From: Arsukibacterium sp. UBA3155
GTDB lineage: Bacteria; Pseudomonadota; Gammaproteobacteria; Enterobacterales; Alteromonadaceae
DNA length: 64,000 nt
Assembly: GCA_002364615.1 (NCBI GenBank)
Contig: DEYP01000016.1
Coordinates: forward strand, 151,639 to 215,638
Reading direction: 5' to 3'
Every line of letters starts with the position of its first letter. The stretch's first letter is position 1. A model generated the notes under the pieces. It was not told the DNA's origin. It saw only the letters and a list, made by a program, of their open reading frames with translations, and made no database searches. Positions 5,793 through 21,458 of this stretch are shown here, piece after piece. The position numbers were made by a program, and so were the translations under genes.

Positions 5793-5845
5793 TTGTTGTC
5801 CTCTGTTCTTTGCTGAACTTTATTTTAGAGCCGTTCTTCGATTCC

Positions 5846-6079
5846 GCTGCTGCTACGTGTATTTTTGTCTGCGACACGCCGTGAACCCCTCCCTGGGGGC
5901 TCGTTTCCGCCCGTCCAGGGCTTCAACGGTCTCAGAAAAAATCACATCCGCATCAGCTTACTTCAAAGTAAAGGGAAGCGCGCTGTACACTTTGGCCGGA
6001 ACCGTGTTTTTCATGGATGAAAAACAGGAGCCCCCATGGATGGGTTTACGGCGTGTTTCGGCAAAGTTGTACGGAGTGC
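5846..6079. repeat. Stem-loop repeat family 1, locus A (two opposed cores)
   Basis: This fills the scoA-liuE gap (5793-6115), which has no gene. Core A1 (5846-5957): a left arm with GTATTTTTGTCTGCGAC and a right arm reading CTCAGAAAAAATCACATCC are complementary around a core GACACGCCGT, CCCCTCCCTGGGGG, CGTCCAGGG, CAACGGTC. Core A2 (5978-6079) is the same element in the other orientation: TGTACACTTTGGCCG pairs with CGGCAAAGTTGTACGG, enclosing TTTTTCATGGATGAAAAA and CCCCATGGATGGG. The arms of A1 and A2 differ in sequence but each pair internally. It lies inside the liu operon and would be transcribed. A translated frame here is repeat-derived, not a gene. Confidence 0.85.
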
Positions 6080-6115
6080 TTACCGTGTCCGAAGAACCTT
6101 ATTTGCTGCTGTTAA

Positions 6116-7030
6116 CTAATCACCAGTTTGCGTGCACTTCGCCTTAAGTGCCAATCCTACTTTAGAACTAGGTTGCTTCCCAAGCTTGCCAGTAATAAAC
6201 CAGCCGGCTTCTGCCAGCGCCGCTAAATCAATGCCGTGCTCAATACCCAGGCCATTTAATAAGTACACCACATCTTCGGTGGCCACATTGCCCGAAGCAC
6301 CAGCAGCATAAGGGCAGCCGCCTAAACCGGCCACAGCGCTATCAATAATGCTAATGCCACGATTAAGCGCCACGTAAATATTAGTCAGGGCCTGGCCGTA
6401 GGTGTCATGAAAATGTACAGCTAATTTTTCAGCAGGTACCATCGATAGCACCGCATCCAGCATGGCGTTCACTTTTGTCGGGGTGCCAACACCAATAGTA
6501 TCGCCCAGAGATATCTCATAGCAGCCCATTTCCAGCAGGGCTTTAGCAACCAGGGCAACCTCGGTCGGTGCCACATCGCCCTGATACGGACAACCGACCA
6601 CACAAGACACATAACCACGTACTTTAATGCCATCAGCTTTCGCCGCCTCAACGACCGGCGCAAAGCGCTCCAGGCTTTCACTGATAGAGCAGTTAATGTT
6701 TTTCTGGCTAAACGCTTCTGATGCTGCGCCAAAAATAGCGACTTCGGTGGCACCTGCGGCTTTTGCTGCTTCATAGCCTTTTAAATTAGGGGTCAGCGCC
6801 GCATAAGTCACGCCAGCTTTGCGGGTAATACCGGCAAATACCTCTGCAGAGTCGGCCATTTGCGGTACCCACTTAGGTGAAACAAAAGCGCCACTTTCAA
6901 TGTAACTGTGCCCAGCGGCGCTTAGCATGTCGATTAAAGCAATCTTATCGGTGCTGCTAACACTTTGCTCGTTTTGCAGGCCATCACGCGGGCCTACTTC
7001 CACTATACGGACACGTGCTGGTAAGCTCAT
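6116..7030 (-). CDS. liuE: Hydroxymethylglutaryl-CoA lyase
   Basis: A 304-residue HMG-CoA lyase (also called MvaB), which splits 3-hydroxy-3-methylglutaryl-CoA into acetyl-CoA and acetoacetate, the last C-C cleavage of leucine degradation. Visible hallmarks: [11 protein letters not shown] at residues 11-21 (metal-binding Asp), HFHDT at 206-210 with the two histidine ligands, and the active-site loop [16 protein letters not shown] with catalytic Cys at 239. Length is normal for bacterial enzymes. The start overlaps the liuD stop by four bases (ATGA), so translation is coupled. Confidence 0.96.
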
Positions 7031-9012
7031 GCTTCCTCCGGACTAAAATCGACCAGTTCGGCACCATCTTTTACCAGGTCGCCAGCTGCATAAAACACCT
7101 CATTTACCACGCCGTCTTTGGGGGCTTTAATGCTGTATTCCATTTTCATCGCTTCCATAATAACCAGCGTATCACCGGCTTTTACATTAGCGCCGGCTTT
7201 GGTCATTATCGCCACAATAGTACCGTTCATTGGCGCAGTTAAACTGCCGGCATGCTCGCTGCCATCCAGCTCCGGAGTGACTTCAGTGCGATAAATAAAG
7301 TCATATCGATGATGTTTAATAAAGACACTGATGGTGTCCTGATAACGGCTGACCCGCACCTTGGTTTTATGATCGCCCAAGGTCGCGCTTAACTCATCGC
7401 CATTTAGATCCGCCAGACAGCAAATTTGCTGGCCTTGCAGTTCAATTACATAATGCTGTTGTTGCTCGCGTATCGTCAATTGCTCAGCGTTATCACCGTG
7501 CAGTAAATTAAGAATAACGGTCGGTGTTTCATTTAAACGCCAGCCATGGCTGTATTGCCAGGGACTCGGGCTGGTGTTACTGGGCCGTGGTGCTTTTTGC
7601 TGCTCCATAATAAATAGCGCGGCTAGCACGAGTGCCTGATTATTCTCGCTGTTGGCCGGGGCGAATAAGGTTGCCTGATGCTGGTTGATAAAGTTGGTAT
7701 CTAACTCGGCTGCTTTAAAGGCCGGGTGCTCTGTTAAGCTGGTTAAAAAGCTTAAATTGGTGGTCACGCCGGCGATCCGGTAATCGTCCAGCGCACGCAG
7801 CATTCTGGCGATAGCGCGGTCACGGCTTTCGTCCCAGACAATAAGCTTGGCAATCATTGGGTCATAAAAAGGCGATACTTCGTCATTCTCTACTACGCCG
7901 GTATCCACCCGCACATTGCGGCTCTGTTCTGGCTGACGTAAATAAGTCAGCTTGCCGGTGGCAGGCATAAAATCGTTATCCGGATCTTCGGCATAGACCC
8001 GCACTTCAATGGCATGGCCATCAATTTGTACTTCGTGCTGACTAAGGGGCAATTTTTCGCCAGCCGCCACTAACAGCTGCCATTTAACCAAGTCCTGGCC
8101 GGTGATCATTTCCGTAACCGGGTGTTCTACCTGCAGTCGGGTGTTCATTTCCATAAAATAGAACGAGCCGTCTTCGTCAAATAAGAACTCTACTGTTCCT
8201 GCACCACGATAATCTATGGCTTTTGCGGCTTTTACTGCAGCTTCACCCATCGCTTTACGCTGTTCTGCGCTGAAATTTGGTGCCGGGGCTTCTTCAATGA
8301 CTTTCTGATGCCGGCGCTGAATAGAGCAATCGCGCTCGGCTAAATACACTGCGTTGCCGTGATTATCACAAAACACCTGAATTTCGATATGACGCGGCTT
8401 GGTTAAATAGCGCTCAACCAGCATTTTGTCATTACCAAAACCAGCTTTCGCTTCGCGCCGGGCACTGGCTAAGGCATCGGCAAACTCTTCTTTTGTCCAG
8501 ACCACCCGCATGCCTTTGCCACCACCACCATAGGCGGCTTTTAACAGCTGCGGATAACCAATATTGGCAGACTCTTTTGCCAGCAGGTCGTCTGATTGAT
8601 CATCACCATGGTAGCCCGGCACTAACGGCACGCCGGCGTCAGCCATAATTTTTTTGGCGGCGCTTTTTGAGCCCATGGCGGTAATCGCACCAACTGGTGG
8701 GCCGATAAACACCACACCAGCATCCGAACAGGCTTTGGCGAAATCTTCATTTTCCGATAAAAACCCATAGCCCGGATGAATGGCCTCAGCACCACTTTGC
8801 TTGGCAATGTCGATTATTTTATCGCTACGCAAGTAAGAGTCTTTACTGGGCGCCGGGCCAAGCAAATAGGCTTCGTCTGCCATGCGGACATGGCGGGCAT
8901 TGGCATCGGCTTCGGAATATACTGCCACGCAGCGAATGCCCAGCTTATGAGCCGTGTCGATAACCCGACAGGCAATTTCGCCACGGTTAGCGATTAATAT
9001 TTTGCGAAACAT
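7027..9012 (-). CDS. liuD: Methylcrotonyl-CoA carboxylase, biotin-containing alpha subunit
   Basis: A 661-residue biotin carboxylase / biotin carboxyl carrier fusion. Residues 1-445 carry the biotin carboxylase domains ([16 protein letters not shown] at the start, [13 protein letters not shown] glycine-rich ATP loop, [14 protein letters not shown]). The C-terminal carrier domain has [11 protein letters not shown] with biotinyl Lys at about 623. Together with LiuB it carboxylates 3-methylcrotonyl-CoA to 3-methylglutaconyl-CoA. Its position between liuC and liuE identifies the substrate class, since close homologues act on propionyl- or geranyl-CoA. Three bases separate it from liuC. Confidence 0.95.
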
Positions 9013-9014
9013 AG

Positions 9015-9821
9015 TTAATTATCCTGTGGCTTAGGCGGTAACCAGTTAGGGCGGCGCTTTTCAAGAAACGCACTCAGGCCTTCCTGGCCTTCATCAGATA
9101 CCCGAATTTCAGCAATTGCCTGAGTAGTATGTGCTACCACATTGTTGCTGATTTTGCGGTTATAAATATTGTGGATCAGTGATTTAGCGGCGCTCATGGC
9201 GGCCGGGCTGTTTTGTAGCAGCTGCTCTGCTAACGCATCAGCTTTTTGCGGCAGCTCAGCTGCACTGACGATTTCGTGCAATAACCCCAGAGATCTGGCA
9301 GTGTCGGCGGTAAAGCGTTCGGCGGTTAAAAAATAACGCCGGCTTTGCCGCTCGCCCAAGGCGCGCATCACGTAGGGGCTGATCACGGCCGGGATCAGGC
9401 CAATTTTCACTTCACTTAAACAGAAGCTGGCGGTATCGCTGGCAATAGCGATATCGCAACACGCTACCAGGCCAACAGCGCCACCAAAAGCGGCACCTTG
9501 CACTAAAGCGAGGGTAGGCTTAGGGAACTTGTCCAGCTTATACATGAGGGTTGCCAACTCGTTGGCGTCGTCCAGATTTTGCGCATAGTCTTTTTCGGCC
9601 ATCGAGCGCATCCAGTTAATATCGGCGCCGGCAGAGAAGTTTTTGCCGTTCGCACTTAGCATAAGCACTTTTACCTGTTCATTGGCTGCGAGGTTGTCCA
9701 GCACCTGGATCAGCTCGGCAATCATCAGATCGTCAAAGGCGTTATGCACCTCTGGCCGGTTGAGTACCAGGTTGGCCACGCCACGCTGGTCGATAGTTAC
9801 TTGGGTGTAAACCTGGTTCAT
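9015..9821 (-). CDS. liuC: Methylglutaconyl-CoA hydratase (enoyl-CoA hydratase family)
   Basis: A 268-residue crotonase-fold protein. The two oxyanion-hole segments are visible: NGKNFSAGADINWM (about 59-72) and QGAAFGGAVGLVACCDIAIA (about 108-127). The place between the two carboxylase subunit genes makes it the hydratase that forms HMG-CoA from 3-methylglutaconyl-CoA. GGAGAGAAA precedes the ATG. It follows a 412-base intergenic region full of stem-loop repeats, after liuB, an unusual interruption for an otherwise very compact operon. Confidence 0.93.
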   Translation of the reverse strand: MNQVYTQVTIDQRGVANLVLNRPEVHNAFDDLMIAELIQVLDNLAANEQVKVLMLSANGKNFSAGADINWMRSMAEKDYAQNLDDANELATLMYKLDKFPKPTLALVQGAAFGGAVGLVACCDIAIASDTASFCLSEVKIGLIPAVISPYVMRALGERQSRRYFLTAERFTADTARSLGLLHEIVSAAELPQKADALAEQLLQNSPAAMSAAKSLIHNIYNRKISNNVVAHTTQAIAEIRVSDEGQEGLSAFLEKRRPNWLPPKPQDN

Positions 9822-9888
9822 TTTCTCTCCAAAAAGTGTTGCTGCAAGCTAGGATGTTATAAACCGGCAATCCTATGTCTTCGACATC

Positions 9889-10200
9889 GCGGTCGCTGCG
9901 TGAATTTTTGTCTGCGACACGCCGTGAACCCATCCATGGGGGCTCGATTCGCCCATCCTGGGCTGCAACGGTCGCCGAAAAAATCACATCCGCACCCGCT
10001 TGATCCACTTAGCAGCAAGCGCACAGTGCACTTTGCTCAGAACCGTGTTTTTCATGGATGAAAAACAGACAAATTCGTCAGGAACGAATTTGAACAGCGT
10101 TCTTTGCTGCCCAAGGGGCAAACTTCACGGATGAAGTTTGTAACCCTACATGGATGTATTTACGGCGTGTTCTGACAAAGTTGTACGGCGCGATTGCTGC
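9889..10200. repeat. Stem-loop repeat family 1, locus B (two opposed cores, expanded hairpin array)
   Basis: This fills the liuB-liuC gap (9822-10233), which has no gene. Core B1 (9889-10000): arm GCGTGAATTTTTGTCTGCGAC pairs with GTCGCCGAAAAAATCACATCC, enclosing CCCATCCATGGGG and GCCCATCCTGGGC. Core B2 (10012-10200): arms GCAGCAAGCGCACAG and TACGGCGCGATTGCTGC enclose an enlarged row of hairpins: TTTTTCATGGATGAAAAA, AAATTCGTCAGGAACGAATTT, AAACTTCACGGATGAAGTTT and TACATGGATGTA. The hairpin tips repeatedly read CATGGATG or a close variant while the stems differ, so the unit looks modular. Confidence 0.85.
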
Positions 10201-10233
10201 GTCTTTGCCCGAAGCGACTGACCGATAGCCACA

Positions 10234-11841
10234 TCACATTCTAAATACACCAAACTTTGTCTCTTCAATTGGCGCATTCAGTGCTGCGGCCAACGCCAGA
10301 CCGACAGTCATCCGGGTTTGTGCCGGGTCAATAATGCCGTCATCCCACAAACGCCCGCTGGCGTAATAAGGGTGACCCTGCTTTTCATACTGCTCAATAA
10401 TCGGTTTTTTCAGTGCTTTTTCGGCATCTGCTGACAAGGTTTCGCCTTTACGGGCTAAGCCGTCTTTGGTTACCTGCGCCATAACGCCTGCTGCCTGCTC
10501 GCCACCCATTACTGATATGCGCGCGTTAGGCCACATCCACATCATGGTTGGGTCATAGGCACGGCCACACATACCGTAGTTGCCGGCGCCATAGCTGCCA
10601 CCAATTAACACGGTAAACTTCGGTACCTTGGCACAGCTTACCGCCATCACCATTTTGGCACCGTGCTTGGCAATACCTTCAGCTTCATATTTTTTGCCGA
10701 CCATAAAGCCGGTAATATTCTGCAGGAATAACAACGGAATTTTGCGCTGAGCACACAATTCAATAAAGTGCGCGCCTTTTTGTGCAGACTCTGAGAAAAG
10801 TATCCCGTTATTGGCGATAATGCCTACCGGATAGCCGAAGATGCGTGCAAAACCGCACACCAGGGTCGCACCGTACAGCTGTTTAAACTCATCAAAATCA
10901 GAGTTATCGACAAGGCGGGCAATCACTTCTTTGACATCAAAAGGTTTGCGTAAATCGGTACCGACAATGCCGTATAACTCTTTGGCATCGTATAAAGGCT
11001 CTTGCGGCGCTTTAACATCCAGTTGCTCTGGTGCCTGGCGGTTTAAGCGCGATACGGCATTACGCGCCAGTTGCAGCGCATGCTCGTCATTGAGTGCATA
11101 GTGATCCGCCACACCGGAGATTTTACAGTGCACATCGGCACCGCCAAGCTCTTCTGCGGAGACTTCTTCACCGGTGGCGGCTTTAACCAACGGTGGGCCG
11201 GCTAAGAAAATAGTGCCTTGCTCTTTAACAATAATGCTCTCATCTGCCATGGCCGGCACATAAGCACCGCCGGCGGTACACAGGCCCATTACTACAGCAA
11301 TTTGCGGAATACCTTTGGCAGACATATTGGCCTGATTAAAGAAAATTCGGCCAAAGTGCAATTTATCCGGGAACACATCGTCTTGCCGCGGCAAGTTAGC
11401 CCCGCCAGAATCGACCAGATAAATACAAGGCAGGTGACAGCGCTCGGCGATTTCCTGCGCTCGCAGGTGTTTTTTTACGGTAAGCGGATAGTAGGTGCCG
11501 CCTTTAACGGTGGCATCGTTAGCGACAATCATGCACTCAACACCACTGACCCGGCCAACACCGGCGACCACGCCTGCGCAGGGCACATAATCTTCATAGC
11601 ATTCCCAGCCGGCAAATTGGCCCACTTCTAAAAAGGGCGAACCCGGGTCAAGCAGCTTTTGAATACGCTCACGCACAAACAACTTACCGCGGGCGGTATG
11701 ACGGGCAATTAATGCTTCGCCGCCACCGAGCTTAATTTGCTGCACCTTAGCGTTCAGATCGTCGACCACGGCCTGCATGGCATCCGCGTTTTTCAGAAAC
11801 TCGTCGCTACGGGGGTTAATTTTACTTACGATCTTGGTCAT
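10234..11841 (-). CDS. liuB: Methylcrotonyl-CoA carboxylase, carboxyltransferase beta subunit
   Basis: A 535-residue carboxyltransferase subunit. It has the two crotonase-like halves of acyl-CoA carboxylases: [19 protein letters not shown] in the N half (acyl-CoA site) and [12 protein letters not shown]-type sequence ([20 protein letters not shown]) with [17 protein letters not shown] in the C half (carboxybiotin site). The LPRQ and GMCGRAY segments are typical of methylcrotonyl-CoA rather than propionyl-CoA carboxylases. The start ATG lies one base after the liuA stop (TGATATG), so reinitiation is likely. Confidence 0.96.
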
Positions 11842-11842
11842 A

Positions 11843-13012
11843 TCAGTTCGACTCTGTAAATAACTCGCGGCCGATTAACATGCGGCGGATTTCAGAGGTG
11901 CCCGCACCAATTTCATACAGTTTGGCATCGCGCAGTAAGCGGCCGGTAGGGTACTCATTAATGTAGCCATTACCGCCTAATAACTGAATGGCATCCAGTG
12001 CCATTTTGGTGGCTAGCTCAGCGGAATATAAAATAACCGCTGCGGCGTCTTTACGGGTGGTTTCGCCACGGTCACAGGCTTTCGCTACTGTGTAAACATA
12101 GGATTTGGCGGCATTCATCTGAGTGTACATATCGGCCAGTTTGCCCTGGACCAGCTGGAATTCACCAATGGCCTGGCCAAACTGTTTACGGTCGTGAATA
12201 TAAGGTACTACCACGTCCATACAGGCCTGCATAATGCCCAGCGGGCCGGCTGCCAATACCACGCGCTCGTAGTCCAGGCCGCTCATTAATACTTTAACGC
12301 CACCGCCAATCTGGCCAAGGATATTTTCGGCCGGTACTTCGCAATCTTCAAATACCAGCTCACAGGTATTAGAGCCTCGCATGCCAAGCTTATCCAGCTT
12401 CTGAGCAGTGCTAAAACCTTTAGTGCCGCGTTCAACAATAAAAGCGGTAATGCCTTTGCTGCCGGCATTAATATCGGTTTTGGCATAAATAACATAGGTG
12501 TGTGCATCCGGGCCGTTGGTGATCCACATTTTATTGCCATTTAAAATGTACATATCGCCTTTTTTCTCGGCGCGCAATTTCATACTCACCACGTCAGAGC
12601 CGGCATTGGGCTCACTCATTGCCAGCGCACCAATATGCTCGCCAGAGCAAAGTTTTGGCAGGTACTTCATTTTTTGCGCTTCAGTACCGTTTCGGAAAAT
12701 CTGGTTAACACACAGATTAGAGTGGGCACCGTATGACAGGCCAACAGAAGCGGAAGCACGACTGATTTCTTCCAGTGCCACCACATGTTCTAAATAGCCG
12801 AGGCCTGAGCCGCCGTATTTTTCATCAACGGTAATGCCGAGCAGACCTAAGTCACCAAATTTGCGCCATAATTCATTTGGGAATTCGTTTACCTGATCAA
12901 TGTGTTCAGCCCGTGGGGCTATTTCTTCGCGCGAGAAAGCATTAACCTGCTCGCGGATCATATCGACGGTTTCGCCTAAATCGAAGTTAAGGCCTTTGTA
13001 ACTGCTTATCAT
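11843..13012 (-). CDS. liuA: Isovaleryl-CoA dehydrogenase
   Basis: A 389-residue flavin acyl-CoA dehydrogenase that oxidises isovaleryl-CoA to 3-methylcrotonyl-CoA. The substrate assignment can be read from the active site: the canonical C-terminal catalytic glutamate position is occupied by glycine ([11 protein letters not shown]), while the alternative glutamate typical of isovaleryl-CoA dehydrogenase is present in [10 protein letters not shown] (Glu about 249). [10 protein letters not shown] and [10 protein letters not shown] are the usual flavin-site segments. It is first structural gene of the liu operon, 34 bases after liuR, and has GGGGAT before its ATG. Confidence 0.96.
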
Positions 13013-13038
13013 GGTAAATCCCCGTTTGCTAAATGCTG

Positions 13039-13058
13039 AAAACCGCCTAAGCGGTTTT
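13039..13058 (-). terminator. Hairpin at the liuR stop, between liuR and liuA
   Basis: AAAACCGC (13039-13046) and GCGGTTTT (13051-13058) form an 8-bp perfect stem with a 4-base loop. On the minus strand the arm ends in TTTT and the loop contains the liuR TAG. This has the form of a weak intrinsic terminator or attenuator placed between the regulator and the catabolic genes. Confidence 0.55.
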
Positions 13059-13451
13059 GGATTGTTTGGCGTCTGCTAAGGTGTCGAGGCAACGTTTTTC
13101 AACGGTAACCAGTTCCATTAGCACTACTTTAATGTCGTCCAGTTGCTGATGCAGTTCGCTTTTCTTCTGCTCGATTAGTCTCAGCATGGTATTTAATTGG
13201 GTAACACTGCTTTTATCAGCGTCGTACAGTTCAAACAGTTGACCGGTTTCTGCCAGACTAAAGCCCAGCCGTTTTCCGCGCAAAATCAACTTCAGGCGAA
13301 CCCGATCACGTTTGCTGTAAATGCGGGTCTGGCCGTTTCGCAGGGGCGTAAGCAGCCGCTGATCTTCGTAAAACCGAATGCTGCGGGTAGTAATGTCGAA
13401 CTCTTTTGCCAGCTCGCTGATACTGTAGGTTTTTTCTTCTTTTTCTGTCAT
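13047..13451 (-). CDS. liuR: MerR-family regulator of branched-chain amino acid catabolism
   Basis: A 134-residue MerR-type regulator. The N-terminal winged helix-turn-helix reads [22 protein letters not shown] (start) and continues through [25 protein letters not shown]; a C-terminal helix with REQ-rich coiled coil (about 85-125) serves dimerisation. LiuR is the known regulator of isovalerate/leucine genes in gammaproteobacteria and heads the liu operon here. AAGGCGG precedes the ATG. Palindromic TTTAC-containing sites lie upstream of both liuR and the divergent thiolase gene, so it probably controls both units. Confidence 0.92.
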
Positions 13452-13476
13452 AACCGCCTTCCCAAAAACGCCATCA

Positions 13477-13505
13477 ACTATAAGTGAAGTTTACGTAAAG
13501 GTAAA
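13477..13505 (-). promoter_or_regulatory. Predicted liu promoter with LiuR-type site
   Basis: On the minus strand TTTACC (13500-13505) and TATAGT (13477-13482) are spaced by 17 bases. The interval overlaps the inverted repeat TTTACGTAAAGGTAAA (13490-13505 on the plus strand). An operator overlapping the -35 and spacer fits a MerR-family regulator. It shares the pattern TTTAC-S-TTTACG with the site upstream of the thiolase gene. Confidence 0.5.
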
Positions 13506-13651
13506 GCTAGTGGCTGGGGGTTAAAATCAATAGAAGAGCGTTTTGGCAGGCTTTGTAAAGCAAAAATGCCAGATTTTTCTGCTCAGACTGTACAGTTTAC
13601 TGCACCATTTTCCGAACTATAAACAGTAGTCACTACCATAGTGTTAGATAG

Positions 13652-13686
13652 TTGACGTTGGCGTAAACGTAAATTTGGTGTAGGCT
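13652..13686 (+). promoter_or_regulatory. Predicted thiolase/mms promoter with LiuR-type site
   Basis: The inverted repeat TTGACGTT-N6-AACGTAAA spans 13652-13673. TTGGCG (13658-13663) and TAGGCT (13681-13686) with 17 bases between could be the -35 and -10. The lower strand reads TTTACGTTTACGCC, matching the liuR-upstream site. Co-regulation by LiuR is inferred. Confidence 0.45.
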
Positions 13687-13726
13687 CTTGGGCATCTTTT
13701 CAGGCCAACCTTGATAGGAGAGTAAA

Positions 13727-14920
13727 ATGGATTCTGACAATACCGGACACAATATTGTAATTGTTGCAGCAAAACGCACCGCGATGGGCGGCTTTATGGG
13801 CGGTTTAACCGAAGTTGACGCCACTGTGCTGGGTGCTACTGCGATTAAAGCGGCGCTAGAGCAAGCCGGTGTTAGCGGCGATAAGGTTAGTGAAGTGATA
13901 ATGGGTAATGTGCTGCCTGCCGGTATAGGTCAGGCCCCGGCGCGCCAGGCTACTTTAAAAGCTGGATTGCCCCTAAGTGCTGGGGCAACCACCATTAATA
14001 AGGTGTGTGGTTCGGGCTTAAAAGCGGTAATGCTTGCCAGTGATTTACTGAAAGCCGGCAGTGCTGATCTGGTGGTTGCCGGTGGTATGGAGTCAATGAG
14101 CAACGCACCGTACTTGTTGCCAAAAGCGCGGGCAGGCTATCGGATGGGTCATGGTGAGATTAAAGACCACATGATGTTAGACGGTCTGGAGAACGCTTAC
14201 GATGGCAAAGCCATGGGCTGTTTTGCTCAGGGTACCGCCGATGAAAAAGGCATTACCCGCGAGCAGATGGATGCTTTCGCGGTGCAGTCAACTACCCGCG
14301 CTCAGCAAGCCATAAGCAGTGGTGCTTTTGAGTCAGAAATTGCCCCGGTAAGCTTTCAAACCCGCAAAGGCGAAGTAACCTTCAAGGTAGATGAGCAGCC
14401 AGGCAATGCCAAACTGGATAAAATCCCAAGCTTACGGCCGGCCTTTGCTAAAGACGGCACCATTACCGCGGCCAACTCCAGCTCTATTTCAGATGGTGCA
14501 GCAGCCCTGATATTAATGCGCGAGTCAGATGCCAAAGCTCAGGGCTTAACACCACTTGCAAAAGTGGTAGCCCACAGCACCAACTCAATGGAGCCGGCAT
14601 TGTTTACTGTGGCCCCGGTTGGCGCTATGCAAAAAGTACTGCAAAAAGCCGGCTGGGATAAAGAGCAGGTCGATCTTTGGGAAATTAACGAAGCCTTTGC
14701 CATGGTCACCATGCTGGCGATAAATGAATTGGGTCTTGATGCAGCCAAAGTTAACGTAAACGGCGGTGCCTGTGCCTTAGGTCACCCGATAGGTGCTTCA
14801 GGCGCCCGTATTCTGGTGACCCTGATTCATGCCCTGCGAAACCGTGGCCTGAGCAAAGGCGTTGCCTCGCTGTGTATAGGTGGCGGTGAAGCCGTTGCCT
14901 TGGCAGTTGAAGTTCTGTAA
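13727..14920 (+). CDS. Acetyl-CoA C-acyltransferase (thiolase)
   Basis: A 397-residue thiolase. The acylated cysteine is in NKVCGSGLKAV (Cys about 94); the C-terminal catalytic motifs are NVNGGACALGHPIGASGAR (His) and CIGGGEAVAL (Cys). Family members reversibly cleave acetoacetyl-CoA, 2-methylacetoacetyl-CoA or short 3-ketoacyl-CoA. In this context it can consume acetoacetyl-CoA from ScoAB or 2-methylacetoacetyl-CoA from isoleucine. The ATG has AGGAGAG at good spacing. It is the first gene of the plus-strand unit, divergent from liuR. Confidence 0.93.
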   Translation: MDSDNTGHNIVIVAAKRTAMGGFMGGLTEVDATVLGATAIKAALEQAGVSGDKVSEVIMGNVLPAGIGQAPARQATLKAGLPLSAGATTINKVCGSGLKAVMLASDLLKAGSADLVVAGGMESMSNAPYLLPKARAGYRMGHGEIKDHMMLDGLENAYDGKAMGCFAQGTADEKGITREQMDAFAVQSTTRAQQAISSGAFESEIAPVSFQTRKGEVTFKVDEQPGNAKLDKIPSLRPAFAKDGTITAANSSSISDGAAALILMRESDAKAQGLTPLAKVVAHSTNSMEPALFTVAPVGAMQKVLQKAGWDKEQVDLWEINEAFAMVTMLAINELGLDAAKVNVNGGACALGHPIGASGARILVTLIHALRNRGLSKGVASLCIGGGEAVALAVEVL

Positions 14921-14947
14921 CTGCGTTAAAAACAAGAACAAGTGTGA

Positions 14948-15035
14948 GGTTGGAATCCCGTTAGCGCAGCCACAGAGTGTCTGAGTGAGCGAAAGCAAGC
15001 GAGTTGCTGTGGCGAGCACAACGGGAGTTGCAACC
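14948..15035. repeat. Stem-loop repeat family 2, copy 1
   Basis: This lies in the thiolase-mmsA gap. Outer arms GGTTGGAATCCCGTT and AACGGGAGTTGCAACC are complementary, followed by CCACAGA/TTGCTGTGG, around a conserved interior CAGAGTGTCTGAGTGAG...GCGAGTTGCTG. A second copy with different but again complementary arms is at 47711-47788. It is probably transcribed with the operon. Confidence 0.75.
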
Positions 15036-15143
15036 GGTAACGTTGCACTGAATGAACAAGCTTTAAATTACAGTGTGCCAGCTTATTTTAATAATTAAAT
15101 CTATTTGCGCTGGCAACACCCCCTAACAACCGGGAGAAGCAAT

Positions 15144-16640
15144 ATGACACAACAGGTTAAACATTTTATCGACGGCGAGTTCGTCAGCTCAAACAGCGAC
15201 AAACTGATCCCCGTCACCAACCCGGCTACCCAGGAAGTGATTGCCCAGGTTCCTTGCGCTACCCAGGAAGAAATGACCCGGGCAGTAGAGTCGGCCAAAG
15301 CCGCTTTTTTAACCTGGAAAGAAGTTCCGGTATCAGAGCGCGCCCGTTTAATGATGCGTTTTGCTCACTTATTAAAAGAACACCAGGGCGAAATTGCGGA
15401 GATTATCTGTCAGGAACTGGGTAAAACCGTTGAAGACGCTAAAGGCGATGTCTGGCGTGGTATCGAAGTTGTTGAGCAGGCGGCCAATATTCCGTCATTA
15501 ATGATGGGCGAAACGGTAGAGAACGTAGCGCGCAGCATTGATACCTACAGCTACATTCAGCCGTTGGGTGTCTGTGCCGGCATTACCCCGTTTAACTTCC
15601 CGGCGATGATCCCATTGTGGATGTTCCCGATGGCCATTGCCTGCGGCAATACCTTTATCTTAAAACCGTCTGAGCAAGACCCGATGACGGTTAACAAAAT
15701 TGCCGAGTTATTTGTTAAAGCCGGCGCGCCAAAAGGCGTGTTGCAAGTAGTGCATGGCGCCAAAGAGCAGGTAGATGCCATATTGCATCACCCGGATATT
15801 AAGGCGATTTCATTTGTTGGCTCGGTCAATGTGGGCCAGTACATCTACAAAACCGGTACCGACAACCTAAAACGCGTACAGGCCTTCGCCGGTGCCAAAA
15901 ACCATATGGTTATTATGCCTGATGCCAATAAACAACAGGTGGTTAACGCTCTGGTGGGTGCTTCAGTCGGCGCTGCCGGTCAGCGCTGTATGGCAATTTC
16001 TGTTGCAGTGTTTGTGGGTGCCGCTGCAGAGTGGATCCCGGAAGTGGCAGCCGCCATTGGTAAAGTACGCCCGGGCGTTTATACCGACCCGAATGCTGCT
16101 TATGGCCCGCAAATTAGCCCGCAAGCCCGTGCCCGTGTACTGTCACTGATTGAGCAGGGTAAAAAAGAAGGCGCAACCTGTGTGCTGGATGGCTCGGACT
16201 GCAAAGTTGAAGGCTATCCGGACGGTAACTGGGTAGGCCCAACGGTATTTAGTAATGTTAAAACCGATATGGAAATCTATAAGCAAGAAATCTTTGGCCC
16301 GGTATTAACCACTATGCATGTTGATTCACTGGCTGAAGCATTAAAAGTGGTTAACGACAGCCCCTACGGGAACGGTACCTCTATATTTACTGCCAGTGGT
16401 GCGGCTGCCCGTAAGTATCAACATGAAGTGGAAGTGGGTCAGGTAGGTATCAACATTCCTATTCCAGTACCACTGCCGTTTTTCTCGTTTACTGGCTGGA
16501 AAGGTTCGTTCTATGGCGACCAGCATGCCTATGGTAAACAGGCAGTACGTTTCTATACTGAGACCAAAACCATTACTGCCCGCTGGTTTGATGACGATAT
16601 TCCGGTATCTGGCCCGAATATGTCGATTAACTTGCGTTAA
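15144..16640 (+). CDS. mmsA: CoA-acylating methylmalonate-semialdehyde dehydrogenase
   Basis: A 498-residue aldehyde dehydrogenase of the MmsA group. It has [16 protein letters not shown], a segment specific to CoA-dependent MMSDH, and the catalytic cysteine in [11 protein letters not shown] (Cys about 282); the C terminus has [19 protein letters not shown]. It converts methylmalonate semialdehyde to propionyl-CoA at the end of valine (and thymine) degradation. The start [13 protein letters not shown] is preferred over an upstream in-frame ATG because GGGAGAAGC lies just before it and homologues begin here. Confidence 0.96.
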
Positions 16641-16661
16641 GCGCGGGGCTTAGAATAACAA

Positions 16662-16767
16662 GGCGGGTGGGAGACTTTACTTAGCCGACCGTTGTAGGCC
16701 ATGGATGGCCGGAAACGAGTCCCAGGGAAGTTTATAGCGTGTCGGCTTGTAAAGTGTGCCACCCAGC
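16662..16767. repeat. Stem-loop repeat family 1, locus C (single core)
   Basis: This lies between mmsA and the acyl-CoA dehydrogenase gene. Arms GGGTGGGAGACTTTACTTAG and CTTGTAAAGTGTGCCACCC are complementary and are followed by GCCGAC / GTCGGC. The core reads ACCGTTG, GGCCATGGATGGCC, GAAACGAG, TCCCAGGGA, TTATAGCGTGTC, the reverse orientation of locus D. The outer arm sequence is unlike that of the other loci although the core is the same. Confidence 0.85.
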
Positions 16768-16833
16768 CCATCATAAGTTTTAACTACATTTAGTAGCAGG
16801 GTGTCAAACACCAGAACCTGTAAAGGTGTATCA

Positions 16834-17991
16834 ATGAATTTCAATTTAACAGAAGACCAACAAGCCTTTGTCGATGTGGCCAAACAGTTTGCCGAACAGG
16901 AACTGGCGCCACATGCCGCGCAGTGGGATCGCGATCACCACTTCCCGAAAGACGTCATTCAAAAAGCCGGTGAGCTGGGTTTTTGCTCGCTGTATACCGC
17001 TGAAGATGACGGTGGTATGGGCTTATCACGCTTAGACTCATCTATTATTTTCGAGCAACTGGCCATGGGCTGTACTGCCACCACGGCCATGTTAACCATT
17101 CATAATATGGCCACCTGGATGATTGCCACCTGGGGTACCAGTGATGCGAAAGCCGAATGGGTAGAGCATTTGGTCACCGGCCAGAAACTGGCGTCGTACT
17201 GCTTAACTGAGCCGGGCTCAGGCTCGGACGCTGCCGGCCTTCGAACCAGTGCCAAAAAAGACGGCAGTGACTACATTCTAAACGGCTCGAAGATGTTTAT
17301 CTCTGGTGCCGGTTCTACCGAAGTACTGGTAGTCATGGCCCGTACCGGTGAAGCTGGTCCTAAGGGCATTTCTGCCTTTATCGTGCCAGCCGATGCTAAA
17401 GGCGTTATATACGGCAAAGCGGAAGAGAAAATGGGCTGGAATGCTCAGCCAACCCGCCTTATTACTTTTGAAGATGTTCGTGTTCCTGCCCATTACTTAT
17501 TGGGTAACGAAGGTGAAGGTTTTGGCTTTGCCATGAAAGGCCTGGACGGCGGTCGGATTAATATTGCTACCTGTTCAATTGGTACCGCCCAGCAGGCACT
17601 AAATACTGCCCGCAATTATATGCTGGAGCGGCAGCAGTTTGGTAAGCCACTGGCGGCGTTTCAGGCGCTGCAGTTTAAACTTGCTGATATGGCAACTGAG
17701 TTAGTTGCTGCCAGGCAGTTAGTGCGCTTAGCCGCCTTTAAACTGGACCAGAAAGACGGTGAAGCGACTGCTTACTGCGCGATGGCCAAACGTTTCGCGA
17801 CTGATGTCGGCTTTCAGGTGTGCGACCAGGCACTGCAGCTGCATGGTGGTTATGGCTACATTAAGGAATATCCGCTGGAGCGGCATTTCCGTGATGTGCG
17901 GGTGCATCAGATTTTGGAAGGCACCAACGAGATTATGCGGCTGATTATCGGCCGGCGGTTACTGGATGAAGCTGCTGGCGATATTCTGTAA
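16834..17991 (+). CDS. Acyl-CoA dehydrogenase, probably isobutyryl-CoA dehydrogenase
   Basis: A 385-residue acyl-CoA dehydrogenase. In contrast to LiuA the canonical catalytic glutamate is present (ILEGTNEIMRLIIG), and the alternative site reads GLDGGRINIA. CLTEPGSGSDAAGL and KMFISGAGSTEVLVVMAR are the flavin/substrate segments. Its neighbours mmsA, enoyl-CoA hydratase, 3-hydroxyisobutyryl-CoA hydrolase and mmsB indicate isobutyryl-CoA of the valine path as main substrate; 2-methylbutyryl-CoA is also possible. The start MNFNLTEDQQ follows AAAGGTG; a longer frame upstream lacks support. Confidence 0.92.
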   Translation: MNFNLTEDQQAFVDVAKQFAEQELAPHAAQWDRDHHFPKDVIQKAGELGFCSLYTAEDDGGMGLSRLDSSIIFEQLAMGCTATTAMLTIHNMATWMIATWGTSDAKAEWVEHLVTGQKLASYCLTEPGSGSDAAGLRTSAKKDGSDYILNGSKMFISGAGSTEVLVVMARTGEAGPKGISAFIVPADAKGVIYGKAEEKMGWNAQPTRLITFEDVRVPAHYLLGNEGEGFGFAMKGLDGGRINIATCSIGTAQQALNTARNYMLERQQFGKPLAAFQALQFKLADMATELVAARQLVRLAAFKLDQKDGEATAYCAMAKRFATDVGFQVCDQALQLHGGYGYIKEYPLERHFRDVRVHQILEGTNEIMRLIIGRRLLDEAAGDIL

Positions 17992-18027
17992 CTTAATCAA
18001 CGGATAATGTTCGTGGTTTAGCGAAAA

Positions 18028-18133
18028 GGTGAACCAGGTTTGTTCACGCCGACACGCCGTAAACCCCTCCCTGGGGGCTCGTTTCCGCCCGTCCAGGGCT
18101 TCAACGGTCGGCTTAGAACAAACCTTATTCACC
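18028..18133. repeat. Stem-loop repeat family 1, locus D (single core)
   Basis: This lies between the acyl-CoA dehydrogenase and hydratase genes. Arms GGTGAACCAGGTTTGTTC and GAACAAACCTTATTCACC pair almost perfectly, then GCCGAC pairs with GTCGGC. The core reads ACGCCGTAAA, CCCCTCCCTGGGGG, CTCGTTTCCGCC, CGTCCAGGG, CTTCAACG. This is the cleanest example of the element: roughly a 26-bp outer stem closing a ~55-base core with two inner hairpins. Confidence 0.88.
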
Positions 18134-18172
18134 TCATTCAACTTCCGAGTATTGCCAACAAAGGAGACATTA

Positions 18173-18946
18173 ATGGCTCAACTAAAACTGGAAAAGCGCG
18201 GTCACACAGCGCTTATCACCATGGCAAACCCGCCAGCCAACACCTGGACCCACGCCAGCTTAACCGAGCTGCGCGATACGGTTCAAAGCCTTAGCAACGA
18301 TAAAAATATTTATGCGTTAGTCATCACCGGCGAAGGCGAAAAATTCTTCTCGGCCGGTGCAGATTTAAAAGTGTTTGCCGATGGTGACAAAGGTGTTGCC
18401 AGCGATATGGCGCGGATTTTTGGCGAAGCATTTGAAACCCTGAGTGCGTTTCGCGGTGTGTCTATTGCAGCGATTAATGGTTATGCCATGGGCGGCGGTT
18501 TAGAAGTCGCATTAGCGTGTGATATCCGCATTGCCGAGCAACAAGCACAGATGGCTTTGCCTGAAGCGAAAGTAGGTTTATTACCCTGTGCCGGTGGCAC
18601 GCAGAATCTGGCGTGGCTGGTCGGTGAAGGCTGGGCAAAACGGATGATTTTATGTGGCGAGCGGCTTAGTGCCGAAAAAGCACTGCAAATTGGTCTGGTA
18701 GAAGAAGTGGTACCTACCGGTAGCGTATTAGAAGCCGCGTTGGCGCTGGCCGATAAAGTTGCCGGGCAAAGTCCGGTAGCGGTAGCCGCGTGTAAGAAAC
18801 TGATCCAACAAGGTCGCAGTGGCAGCATCAATGCCGCATTACCGTTAGAGCGCGAGTTATTTGTTGGGTTGTTTGATAGTAAAGATCAGGTCGAAGGGGT
18901 GCAGGCCTTTTTAGAGAAGCGTCAGGCTAAGTGGATTAACGGGTGA
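18173..18946 (+). CDS. Enoyl-CoA hydratase (valine pathway type)
   Basis: A 257-residue crotonase-family enzyme with oxyanion-hole segments GEKFFSAGADLKVF (about 53-66) and NGYAMGGGLEVALACDIRIA (about 103-122) and the acidic PEAKVGLLPCAGGTQ loop. It should hydrate methacrylyl-CoA (and tiglyl-CoA) between the acyl-CoA dehydrogenase and the hydrolase encoded on either side. The ATG at 18173 follows AAAGGAG. An open frame continuing 48 codons upstream is made of stem-loop repeat D and should not be taken as N-terminal sequence. Confidence 0.93.
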   Translation: MAQLKLEKRGHTALITMANPPANTWTHASLTELRDTVQSLSNDKNIYALVITGEGEKFFSAGADLKVFADGDKGVASDMARIFGEAFETLSAFRGVSIAAINGYAMGGGLEVALACDIRIAEQQAQMALPEAKVGLLPCAGGTQNLAWLVGEGWAKRMILCGERLSAEKALQIGLVEEVVPTGSVLEAALALADKVAGQSPVAVAACKKLIQQGRSGSINAALPLERELFVGLFDSKDQVEGVQAFLEKRQAKWING

Positions 18947-20088
18947 GCAATATGAGTACAGACGTAGTGTTATATCAGGAACTGACGGCTGACAATGGTA
19001 AAAAAATTGCGGTTGCCACTCTTAATTCAGAGAAGTCATTAAATGCGCTGAGTTTACCGATGGTGGAGTCGTTACTGCCAAAACTACAGGCTTGGAAAAA
19101 CGACCCGGCTATTGCCATGGTGCTATTGCAAGGCGCTGGCGATAAAGCATTTTGTGCCGGTGGTGATATACGTGACTTATATCAGGCAATGAAAGAAAGC
19201 CCGGATTACTATCACCCCTATGTTGAAGAGTTTTTTACCAAAGAATATACCCTGGATTACCTGATCCATACCTTCGATAAACCTTTGCTGGTATGGGGCA
19301 ACGGTATTGTAATGGGTGGCGGTTTAGGCCTGATGGCGGGCGCGTCACACCGTGTGGTTACCGCAACCAGCCGGATCGCGATGCCGGAAATGGCGATTGG
19401 TTTATACCCGGATGTTGGCGCTAGTTGGTTTTTAAACCGAATGCCGCCGGGCTGTGGTATTTTCTTAGGGTTAACCGGCGCTTCTATCAATGCAGCTGAT
19501 GCCAAATTTATTCATTTAGCGGATCATTTTATCGAACACGAAAGCAAAGCCGCCTTGGTTGATAAACTAATGACGGTGAAGTGGGGCGAAACCATTGCCC
19601 TTAATCATCAGAAATTATCCGATGTGTTACGAAGTGCAGAAGAGCAGTGCCGTACCAAAATGCCGCTAAGCCAGATCCGGCCGCATCAGAGTGCTATCAC
19701 TGCCCTTAACGACATCAGCAGCCTGCCGCAGGTTATTAGTGCTATCAACGCAATCGAAGGCGATGACAAATGGCTGATTAAAGCCAAACAGTCGCTTGCC
19801 TACGGCAGCCCGATTACTGCGCATATTGTGTTTAAGCTGTTGCAACTGGGCCAGAGCAAAATACTGGCTGACAGCTTCCGGCTGGAGCTGGGTATTAGTG
19901 TCCAGTGTGGACAGCTGGGCGAGTTTCAGGAAGGCGTGCGGGCACTGCTGATTGATAAAGACTTAAAACCAGACTGGAAATATAAGCAGGTGGATGAAGT
20001 ACCTGCAGATGTTATTGAGCTGCTGTTCAGTTCACCATGGCAGGATAACGAGCATCCATTAAAAGATCTGGGCTTGTTAGATAGTTAA
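18943..20088 (+). CDS. 3-hydroxyisobutyryl-CoA hydrolase
   Basis: A 381-residue crotonase-superfamily thioesterase. Hallmarks are AFCAGGDIRDLYQ (about 69-81), NGIVMGGGLGLM and MPEMAIGLYPDVGASWFL, which is specific to the HIBCH group. It frees 3-hydroxyisobutyrate from its CoA ester for MmsB. The GTG at 18943 overlaps the preceding TGA (GTGA). The ATG at 18952 is an equally possible start with GGGTGA upstream. Next gene begins 29 bases on. Confidence 0.94.
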   Translation: MSNMSTDVVLYQELTADNGKKIAVATLNSEKSLNALSLPMVESLLPKLQAWKNDPAIAMVLLQGAGDKAFCAGGDIRDLYQAMKESPDYYHPYVEEFFTKEYTLDYLIHTFDKPLLVWGNGIVMGGGLGLMAGASHRVVTATSRIAMPEMAIGLYPDVGASWFLNRMPPGCGIFLGLTGASINAADAKFIHLADHFIEHESKAALVDKLMTVKWGETIALNHQKLSDVLRSAEEQCRTKMPLSQIRPHQSAITALNDISSLPQVISAINAIEGDDKWLIKAKQSLAYGSPITAHIVFKLLQLGQSKILADSFRLELGISVQCGQLGEFQEGVRALLIDKDLKPDWKYKQVDEVPADVIELLFSSPWQDNEHPLKDLGLLDS

Positions 20089-20117
20089 TTTACCAGGACA
20101 ACTGCAAGGAATTTATT

Positions 20118-21008
20118 ATGGCTAAAGTTGCGTTTATCGGTTTAGGAAACATGGGTGGCCCAATGGCTACTAACTTATTAAAAGCCGGCCACGATGTTAT
20201 CGCCTTTGATTTATCAAAAGATGCGCTGGCACAGATAGCAGCAGAAGGCGCTAAGGTAGCGAGCTCTGCCAGAGAGGCGGTAGGTCACACTGATTATGTT
20301 ATTTCTATGCTGCCGGCAGGCAAGCATGTGATTGACCTGTATCTGGGCGAGCAGGGCATTGCCAGTGCGATCAGCAAGCAGGCGTTGGTCATTGACTGCT
20401 CTACCATTGATGCTGAAAGTGCCCGCACGGTAGGTACTGGCCTTGCTCAGCAGGGTATCGCTTTTATCGATGCACCGGTATCTGGTGGGGTAGGCGGTGC
20501 TAAAGCTGGCACTTTGACCTTTATTGTTGGCGGTGCAGCGCAGGATTTTGAAAATGCCCACACTGTGCTGAGCAATATGGGTAAAAACCTGTTTCATGCC
20601 GGAGCCATTGGCGCAGGGCAGGTCGCAAAAATCTGTAACAATATGCTGTTAAGTATTTTAATGGCAGGTACCTCTGAAGCGCTGCAAATGGGCATCAATA
20701 ATGGGCTGGATCCGAAAGTGTTATCAGACATTATGCTGAAAAGCTCAGGTCGCAACTGGACGCTGGAGCTGTATAACCCTTGCCCGGGTGTGATGGACAA
20801 TGTGCCGGCTTCGAATAACTATCAGGGCGGCTTTATGGTTGATTTAATGGCCAAAGATTTAGGGCTGGCGCTGGAGTCTGCTAAGCAAAGTGGCAGCAAC
20901 ACGCCTTTGGGTGAACTGGCGCATAAATTATATGTACAGCACCAGCAGGACGGTAATGGCAAACTGGATTTCTCCAGCATTTTTAAGATGTTGGCTAAAG
21001 ACGCCTAA
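20118..21008 (+). CDS. mmsB: 3-hydroxyisobutyrate dehydrogenase
   Basis: A 296-residue beta-hydroxyacid dehydrogenase. The N terminus has the Rossmann loop AFIGLGNMGGPMATNL, then DCSTIDAESAR, the substrate loop DAPVSGGVGGAKAGTLT, and the catalytic lysine in GAGQVAKICNNMLL (Lys about 171). It oxidises 3-hydroxyisobutyrate to methylmalonate semialdehyde, the MmsA substrate. AAGGAATTT precedes the ATG. The valine path genes are therefore complete from acyl-CoA stage on. Confidence 0.96.
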   Translation: MAKVAFIGLGNMGGPMATNLLKAGHDVIAFDLSKDALAQIAAEGAKVASSAREAVGHTDYVISMLPAGKHVIDLYLGEQGIASAISKQALVIDCSTIDAESARTVGTGLAQQGIAFIDAPVSGGVGGAKAGTLTFIVGGAAQDFENAHTVLSNMGKNLFHAGAIGAGQVAKICNNMLLSILMAGTSEALQMGINNGLDPKVLSDIMLKSSGRNWTLELYNPCPGVMDNVPASNNYQGGFMVDLMAKDLGLALESAKQSGSNTPLGELAHKLYVQHQQDGNGKLDFSSIFKMLAKDA

Positions 21009-21073
21009 GTCTTAATAGATATGCAAGTACTCCGAATGTTTTGGTTAAGTATTTGTTCAGGTAGTAGGTAATC

Positions 21074-21329
21074 GCTGCTACTGCGTACATTTTTGTCTGT
21101 GACACGCCATAAACCGTCCCTGGGGCTCGGTTCCGGCCATCCATGGCCTACAACGGTCTCAGAAAAAAGTACATCCGTATCCGCTGCTTCGGTGTTCTTT
21201 GCGATCTCGATGTTACACTCGAGACAGACGCGGATGTACTTTTTGGCGGACCGTGTTTTTCATGGATGAAAAACAGGAGTCTACAGGGAAGTATTTACGA
21301 CGTGTCCGACGAAAAATGTACGCAGCGGC
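21074..21329. repeat. Stem-loop repeat family 1, locus E (two opposed cores)
   Basis: This occupies the 450-base mmsB-SDR gap (21009-21458), which has no gene. E1 (21074-21187): TGCGTACATTTTTGTCTG pairs with CTCAGAAAAAAGTACATCCG, enclosing CCGTCCCTGGGG and GGCCATCCATGGCC. E2 (21228-21329): CGCGGATGTACTTTTTGGCG pairs with CGACGAAAAATGTACGCAGC, enclosing TTTTTCATGGATGAAAAA and TACAGGGAAGTA. E1 and E2 share nearly the same arm sequence in opposite orientation, so the whole unit is also one long inverted repeat. CTCGATGTTACACTCGAG between them is a small extra hairpin. Confidence 0.85.
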
Positions 21330-21458
21330 TGGCGGGTTGCCAGGTCACTGCCAAATTAGAATTAAGCAATAACAAAGCTTTTAGCTTTGTTTCTAAGAGA
21401 AAATAAGCTTACGCGCAGATTAAATGTACATAGTAATCGCGCCTACGGAGAAAGTGGT

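Follow-up and report, generated by a model that had tools for sequence, protein, structure and literature searches.

A structured intergenic repeat of Arsukibacterium sp. UBA3155 and its likely place in a broad gammaproteobacterial superfamily of MITE-like elements that includes Yersinia YPAL/RU-2

What kind of element are the hairpin-forming repeats that lie between the genes of a leucine/valine-degradation cluster in Arsukibacterium sp. UBA3155? The window analyzed, 64,000 nucleotides of assembly GCA_002364615.1 (contig DEYP01000016.1, positions 151,639 to 215,638), carries eight cores of this repeat at five intergenic sites of the cluster, designated A to E; gene names are our reading of the open reading frames of the window. 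With moderate confidence, the repeats are interpreted as a non-autonomous mobile element of the type of a miniature inverted-repeat transposable element (MITE), belonging to a broad gammaproteobacterial superfamily whose named member is YPAL/RU-2 of Yersinia. The MITE-like character is ordinary; unusual are the breadth of distribution, the probable folding of one strand, the near-constant GGA loops, and the hairpin-sized duplication in relatives.

Cores were located with a covariance model (R1) built from 18 of the 22 cores of the same genome, four with extra or missing hairpins being excluded. R1 recovered exactly eight cores in the window, in agreement with the eight cores at five loci described in an initial annotation of the sequence. 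Seven of these were among the training cores and were matched by construction, and B-reverse stood outside the model. The cores, in window coordinates with R1 scores, are as follows.

5850..5955, plus strand: core A-forward, between scoA and hmgL (95.2 bits), with TCC loops on the plus strand and GGA loops on the minus strand
5976..6081, minus strand: core A-reverse, completing the head-to-head pair A (68.3 bits), with hairpin TTTTTCATGGATGAAAAA on the plus strand
9893..9997, plus strand: core B-forward, between ech1 and mccB (89.9 bits)
10017..10194, minus strand: core B-reverse with an extra multi-hairpin module (weak match, 23.3 bits at 10075-10193)
16663..16766, minus strand: core C, single, between mmsA and the isobutyryl-CoA dehydrogenase gene (80.4 bits), arms GGGTGGGAGACTTTAC / GTAAAGTGTGCCACCC
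18028..18133, plus strand: core D, single, in the gap between the isobutyryl-CoA dehydrogenase and enoyl-CoA hydratase genes (110.6 bits), arms GGTGAACCAGGTTTGTTC / GAACAAACCTTATTCACC
21078..21182, plus strand: core E-forward, between the genes for 3-hydroxyisobutyrate dehydrogenase and a short-chain dehydrogenase/reductase (SDR) (78.4 bits)
21226..21328, minus strand: core E-reverse, the other half of pair E (67.0 bits)

Sites A, B and E thus hold two facing copies (head-to-head), and C and D one copy each. On the strand used in the initial annotation, a copy runs through an arm, GAC, ACGCCGTRAA, hairpin 1 (HP1), GGCTCG, hairpin 2 (HP2), ACG, GTC, and the complementary arm. The strings reported as shared by all cores were found with some variation: CAACGGTC is exact in five of eight cores, the three inner reverse cores having CACGGT instead, and GACACGCCGT is exact in three cores and present with at most one mismatch in four more, while C has GACACGCTAT. 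The outer arms quoted for D, C and E are present and pair within each copy. A uniform two-hairpin core had to be corrected for B-reverse, which bears extra hairpins.

A copy can form three structural parts: a long stem whose sequence is specific to the lineage, a three-way junction that is conserved, and small hairpins, two in number and sometimes more. Single-strand folds of D, C and locus L012, calculated for both strands, were better than 200 of 200 shuffles every time, with z-scores of -3.3 to -6.0 as DNA and -4.1 to -7.0 as RNA. Among the 18 cores of the own genome, 82.2% of pair cells were standard against a shuffled mean of 64.2% (none of 500 shuffles as high), and 71 double-change cells were counted against 26.0 in shuffles; slid controls were also exceeded. 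An alignment of 120 distinct cores from loci of other genera, fitted to the R1 model, had 94.1% of pair cells formed against 56.7% when shuffled and at most 45.7% when partners were slid by 1-3 columns; it held 923 double changes against 279 in shuffles, and further pair types showed no excess (74 against 76.4). RNAalifold, applied to an unfitted MAFFT alignment of 26 cores of our choice, likewise returned a long stem and two hairpins around the junction. Compensation was seen in 34 of 41 pairs on the strand that carries GGA in its hairpin loops (GGA strand) and in 34 of 42 on its complement (TCC strand). Selection on secondary structure, as initially proposed, is therefore strongly supported by covariation far above shuffles and slid controls in the own genome and in other genera, and by the compensated pairs of the unfitted alignment.

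The arms are unlike between genera and common to loci within a lineage, as in loci L180, L191, L201, L223 and L234 of Xanthomonas. This sharing suggests that the arms are part of the element and change gradually, their pairing being preserved. The earlier idea of an element that copies into pre-existing palindromes stands in part: against it speaks that the arms seem to be the element's own, and for it that insertion in enterobacterial relatives occurs at hairpins that are duplicated in full.

The element is not confined to this locus: 23 cores were found in the own genome of 3.9 Mb (R1, E up to 0.1). All 31 genomes of the genus that were searched, own included, have 11-62 cores each, and cores occurred in 9 of 29 other genomes of the order. 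An even draw across the class (E 1e-4) gave cores in 44 of 276 genomes and 41 of 216 genera, own included; these genus, order and class copy numbers are lower bounds owing to stricter filters, the class draw having scored at most 14 candidates per genome. For other genera, 80 loci, including a few of Rheinheimera, were fetched from at least 119 stretches that match an exact pattern in named genomes. The pattern fixed the HP1 loop, so that conservation of HP1 in the 80 loci is by construction; HP2 was free. Represented among the fetched loci are Xanthomonas, Stenotrophomonas, Cellvibrio, Microbulbifer, Rheinheimera, Marinobacter, Halopseudomonas, Shewanella, Alcanivorax, Sodalis, Oceanisphaera and Haliea. 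The other-genus loci gave 121 R1 matches before the pattern filter. Loop, wobble and junction counts were restricted to pattern-fitting cores with paired GAC/GTC and TCC; 207 were kept, of which 198 are non-identical (133 from the genus and 65 from others). Plasmid searches yielded three weak partial matches with the A element and one Marinobacter match with a Stenotrophomonas copy, and E. coli genomes and phages searched with enterobacterial copies gave no match.

Kinship with named repeats shows in the core. YPAL/RU-2 is reportedly the Yersinia palindromic sequence of De Gregorio (2006) and Delihas (2007). The window repeat shares with it HP1, the GAGCC linker, HP2, ACGGCGT, and the fold, and filled and empty orthologous sites, a trait of YPAL/RU-2, were also found in the window's genus. 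Rfam family RF02770 (Ysr224, Yersinia sRNA 224), which models the TCC strand, matched the Sodalis locus L210 with 82.9 bits (gathering score 70), overlapping an R1 core. The statement that no name was known for the element is therefore wrong at the family level, though the window copies are without a Ysr224 match. They are not YPAL proper (about 168 bp): the outer sequence and the Ysr224 gathering score were not matched in the window, and the arms differ by eye. A search of 5800-21400 against Rfam up to E 10 gave no family on the elements and only a chance-like mir-145 match off them; at gathering scores, too, Rfam placed no family on the window's elements. For one strand of RU-2, Table 1b of PMC2759123 prints GCGCCAAGGATGGCGC, GAGCC, TACATGGATGTA and TTTACGGCGT. 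According to an excerpt of PMC2229807, YPAL is intergenic and 168 bp long, with duplications of 3-26 bp, targets that span or adjoin dyad symmetry, and empty and filled sites; an excerpt of a Yersinia survey gives 2-144 copies per genome (PMC2847712). Ysr224 is listed among the small RNAs most often annotated in bacteria in part of PMC9029176. In the open-licence literature searched, no work joining these repeats across the class or to CsrA was found; core strings brought up a single Streptomyces paper.

The cluster was compared in 16 congeners. Gene order was the same, except that the second enoyl-CoA hydratase gene is absent in L126-L128; L128 is partial. Orthologous sites were filled, empty or inverted between species. 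No core was present at site A in 6 of 15 readable relatives (gap of 26-69 bp; the L126 core was recognised by eye), at B in 3 of 16, at D in 3 of 13 readable relatives, and at E in 3 of 16 (6-bp gap); at C a recognisable core was absent in 4 of 16. Each of the five sites was filled in more than half of the congeners read. At D, the window and three relatives have the core forward and seven relatives have it reversed; at C it is reversed in eight (window included) and forward in five. L120 has kept one of the two units at B. With respect to flanking tandem genes, the GGA strand of single cores is sense or antisense in a ratio of 25:24 in the genus and 8:12 elsewhere. For these orientation counts and the distances given below, genes were predicted mechanically, loci L001-L030 were omitted as duplicates, and cores inside predicted open reading frames (8 in the genus, 16 in others) or at locus edges (5 and 7) were dropped. 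Regulation in cis by orientation was rejected, as no bias relative to genes was seen.

Other repeats were noticed at these sites. In gap B of L126 a second structured repeat, with hairpins GCAGCATGGATGCTGC and GGCACAGGGATGTG that have GGA loops too, alternates in tandem with the core; it occurs in gaps A and B of a subgroup of congeners, L126 and L127. The mccB-ivd gap of L119 and L122 contains two copies of a repeat, AACAACTAAGCAGACGATCAAGAGCGA and close variants, and is without it in most other congeners. In the window itself, the thl-mmsA gap holds another repeat-like stretch (14920-15137), in which the flanks GTGAGGTTGG, CCACAGAGTGTCTGA and GTTGCTGTGGCGAGCACA are conserved around a hairpin that varies among congeners; a similar stretch adjoins the core in L012.

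The mode of insertion can be read in relatives. With the Sodalis copy L210 as query, 13 Pantoea plasmids were found. Records matching one Pantoea site numbered 52; query coverage was 98-100% in 13 of them, 83% (in two pieces) in 29, 90% in one, and 37-42% in nine. Five filled and three empty versions of the site were read. The empty site has one terminator hairpin. In four of the filled versions two direct copies of this hairpin enclose the element; they are identical over 28 bp in L278 and L282 and show one or two differences in L279 and L287. The remaining filled version (P. vagans, L292) has a single copy. Hairpin-shaped direct repeats also flank L210 (18 bp) and L222 (20 bp, with one mismatch). 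A scan of 183 loci gave six direct repeats of at least 16 nt around cores, in five loci, against 2 of 361 in the control; those of L064, L191 and L198 look like tandem arrays, and only L210 and L222 resemble target duplications. Insertion at a terminator hairpin, the hairpin being duplicated in full, is thus shown in relatives only.

Some copies are rearranged internally. In L064, element copies stand in tandem and a 17-bp spacer, ATGTAGTTATATCATCG, recurs. One Pantoea strain is without the inner hairpin of the element, the gap apparently lying between short CCGT repeats (L290 compared with L280). Nearly the same multi-hairpin module lies within HP2 at two Pantoea plasmid sites (L287, L291) and is absent from other strains; it is an insertion within an insertion.

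Which strand folds was addressed through mismatches. When one base of a pair is substituted, the result can be a wobble on one strand and A.C on the other, and an excess of A.C over G.T on one strand shows which strand's fold is tolerated. Isolated arm mismatches on the TCC strand, counted only where flanked by paired bases, had A.C:G.T ratios of 40:12 in other-genus loci and 77:16 in the genus, where C.T counts are inflated by a fixed internal loop. The three junction-adjacent pairs, read without alignment, gave 6:0 in other genera and 15:3 in the genus, and model alignments of two non-genus sets gave 60:28 (29 sources against 5) and 20:5 (8 against 3). A fresh set of 28 loci, with ten parsed cores, gave 6 against 2, which is not significant. 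Unrelated ordinary hairpins of the same loci gave 39:42, and a positive control of 18 terminator hairpins (2 against 0) was too small. The RNAalifold energy slightly favours the GGA strand (-79.6 against -77.9 kcal/mol). The GGA strand is thus probably the one whose folding is selected, a conclusion that these counts support and do not prove. Unbiased orientation together with folding of one strand would argue for a single-stranded step intrinsic to the element rather than for read-through transcripts.

A mechanism can be proposed on this basis. A trans-acting enzyme would bind the junction and loops of the single-stranded GGA strand, either as DNA during replication or as its RNA, and would insert it where target DNA forms a hairpin or cruciform. 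If the cruciform were cut in a staggered manner at its two 5' bases, the resulting duplication would equal the hairpin. The arms would need only to pair and could drift by compensatory change, and the head-to-head pairs A, B and E would be two units side by side.

Several points weigh against this interpretation. The own-genome copies are diverged (mean column identity 69%), which leaves present-day movement to inference. In the window's genus, the direct-repeat scan showed no target duplication and the empty sites show no evident hairpin; inversions and losses at fixed sites could have arisen by recombination between arms instead of transposition. Of eight element-bearing Pantoea loci, R1 found five, with 26.6-35.7 bits, and failed to find L279, L287 and L291 at E up to 1. 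The strand-test counts are phylogenetically non-independent, and the genus alignment A2, which is model-fitted, gave the reverse ratio (A.C 40, G.T 65; 2 sources against 15), which we tentatively attribute to misaligned arms. The control hairpins were not oriented by the element, which leaves room for a mutational bias linked to the strands of the element itself. Among 40 core-bearing genomes, PF01797 was absent from 7, PF01548 from 14 and PF00078 from 22, and two core-bearing genomes that consist of a single contig, G025 and G035, contain none of the three. For want of co-occurrence with cores, RAYT, IS110 and reverse transcriptase were accordingly rejected as movers; the mover may lie outside these three families or have been lost. 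A possible autonomous copy in L216, where two inverted cores lie about 1.5 kb apart, was rejected as well, as by eye the intervening genes resemble those for an SDR and a thioredoxin-like (DsbA-type) protein and not a transposon. The outer arms of these cores (257-361 and 1818-1922) end like GGAAACACTGATTAA / TTAATCAGTGTTTCC, which gives the impression of a core nested in another MITE.

The loops suggest the alternative that survives best, unlikely as we hold it to be: the GGA strand may act as RNA, as a dispersed CsrA/RsmA-binding element that is either a mobile Csr sponge or a CsrA-protected transcript. The Rsm/Csr binding consensus is CANGGAYG, and two or more hairpins of the element have loops of the A-N-GGA-N type. 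On the GGA strand the HP1 loop is ANGGAN in 132 of 133 genus cores, where the selection pattern demanded GGA and left A free. Where an HP2 is recognisable, it has GGA in 127 of 130 genus cores and in 61 of 62 others (188 of 192 in total), CANGGATG being the commonest form in both. In 12 multi-hairpin copies, counted from the hairpin listing, 29 of 38 hairpins of at least 5 bp have GGA; so do all 22 main module hairpins, two in each of the 11 copies where they were detected (none was detected in L113). The module of B-reverse, in which additional hairpins interrupt the core (plus-strand fold z -6.8), has the following GGA-loop hairpins.

10046-10067, plus strand: GGA-loop hairpin, from the hairpin listing
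10070-10092, plus strand: GGA-loop hairpin, from the hairpin listing
10119-10140, plus strand: GGA-loop hairpin, from the hairpin listing
10148-10159, plus strand: short GGA-loop hairpin, read from the sequence

The near-constant GGA of HP1, HP2 and the main module hairpins favours a Csr role, as do the wobble bias towards the GGA strand and the Rfam small RNA family that sits on the core in Sodalis. CsrA binding was proposed for the TwoAYGGAY RNA with its similar GGA loops, according to an excerpt of PMC4333381. The gene csrA is present in all 40 core-bearing genomes but also in 59 of all 60 genomes searched, so its presence is uninformative. Orientation is unbiased relative to genes and flips at orthologous sites, which leaves no cis role in host mRNAs; Ysr224 models the opposite (TCC) strand, and no sigma-70-like match was found inside the cores. 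A smaller chance still is given to a wider proposal that joins both ideas, a hairpin-into-hairpin element. Its one-strand form, RNA or single-stranded DNA, would carry at least two CsrA/RsmA-type GGA hairpins on a three-way junction and would insert into DNA hairpins, duplicating them whole; it would possibly be copied through RNA and possibly serve as a dispersed Csr sponge.

It is improbable that the repeat is a structured element kept for a host function at gene ends (protection of mRNA 3' ends, transcription stop, or RNase III processing) and spreading slowly. The median distance from the core is 58 bp to a gene 3' end and 118 bp to a 5' end, single cores lie at 30 convergent and 9 divergent sites, and the five sites are occupied in most congeners read, all of which would fit such a role. 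Related species, however, have empty sites in the same gene neighbourhood, and a one-strand folding bias is left unexplained if the element is read as often in one orientation as in the other. Of the terminator-like matches, five touch cores, at an arm, an edge or a module hairpin, and none spans one, so that a terminator role with stem and T-run supplied by the element was rejected.

Left arm of B: two overlapping terminator-like matches
Module hairpin of B-reverse: one terminator-like match
Left arm of D: one terminator-like match
Right edge of E-forward: one terminator-like match

Very improbable is a repetitive extragenic palindrome (REP) or BIME-like repeat moved by RAYT, a Y1 tyrosine transposase: the copies are palindromic, intergenic, and single or head-to-head as in BIMEs, and PF01797 occurs in 33 of the 40 core-bearing genomes, but the other seven are without it, only 1 of the 30 RAYT loci that were fetched (about 3 kb each, 21 from core-bearing genomes) has a core nearby, no RAYT gene was tied to the element, relatives show hairpin-sized target duplication, and R1 has 106 positions against the 20-40 bp given for REPs in part of PMC3733652.

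One structural core unites Yersinia YPAL with repeats, for which no name was found, in genera that include Xanthomonas, Stenotrophomonas, Rheinheimera, Marinobacter, Microbulbifer and Pantoea, and about one in six genomes drawn from the class bears it. The covariation of this core can mislead searches for functional RNAs; an Rfam small RNA family already rests on the same core. Should the strand bias and the hairpin-sized duplication hold, the transposition chemistry would read the shape of DNA or RNA, and the GGA loops make a possible mobile link to the Csr/Rsm network directly testable.

Among known systems, CsrB-type RNAs are products of small RNA genes and not dispersed repeats. CsrB, RsmX/Y/Z and the TwoAYGGAY RNA resemble the present element in having several GGA-loop hairpins; compared with CsrB and RsmX/Y/Z, it has many copies per genome and no promoter was shown. 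REP/BIME and REPIN sequences are also palindromic intergenic repeats with oppositely oriented pairs, from which it differs by a larger unit with a three-way junction, by the lack of a visible RAYT link, and by the hairpin-sized duplication in relatives. ERIC/RU-1, NEMIS/Correia and RUP are likewise non-coding, MITE-like repeats of about 100-200 bp and, unlike YPAL/RU-2, have terminal inverted repeats and TA termini, as described in an excerpt of PMC2229807. The closest likeness is to YPAL/RU-2, which by eye has the same HP2, linker, HP1 and junction side in the part of PMC2759123 consulted; the window copies differ from it in their other arms, their head-to-head pairs, and the lack of a detectable target duplication.

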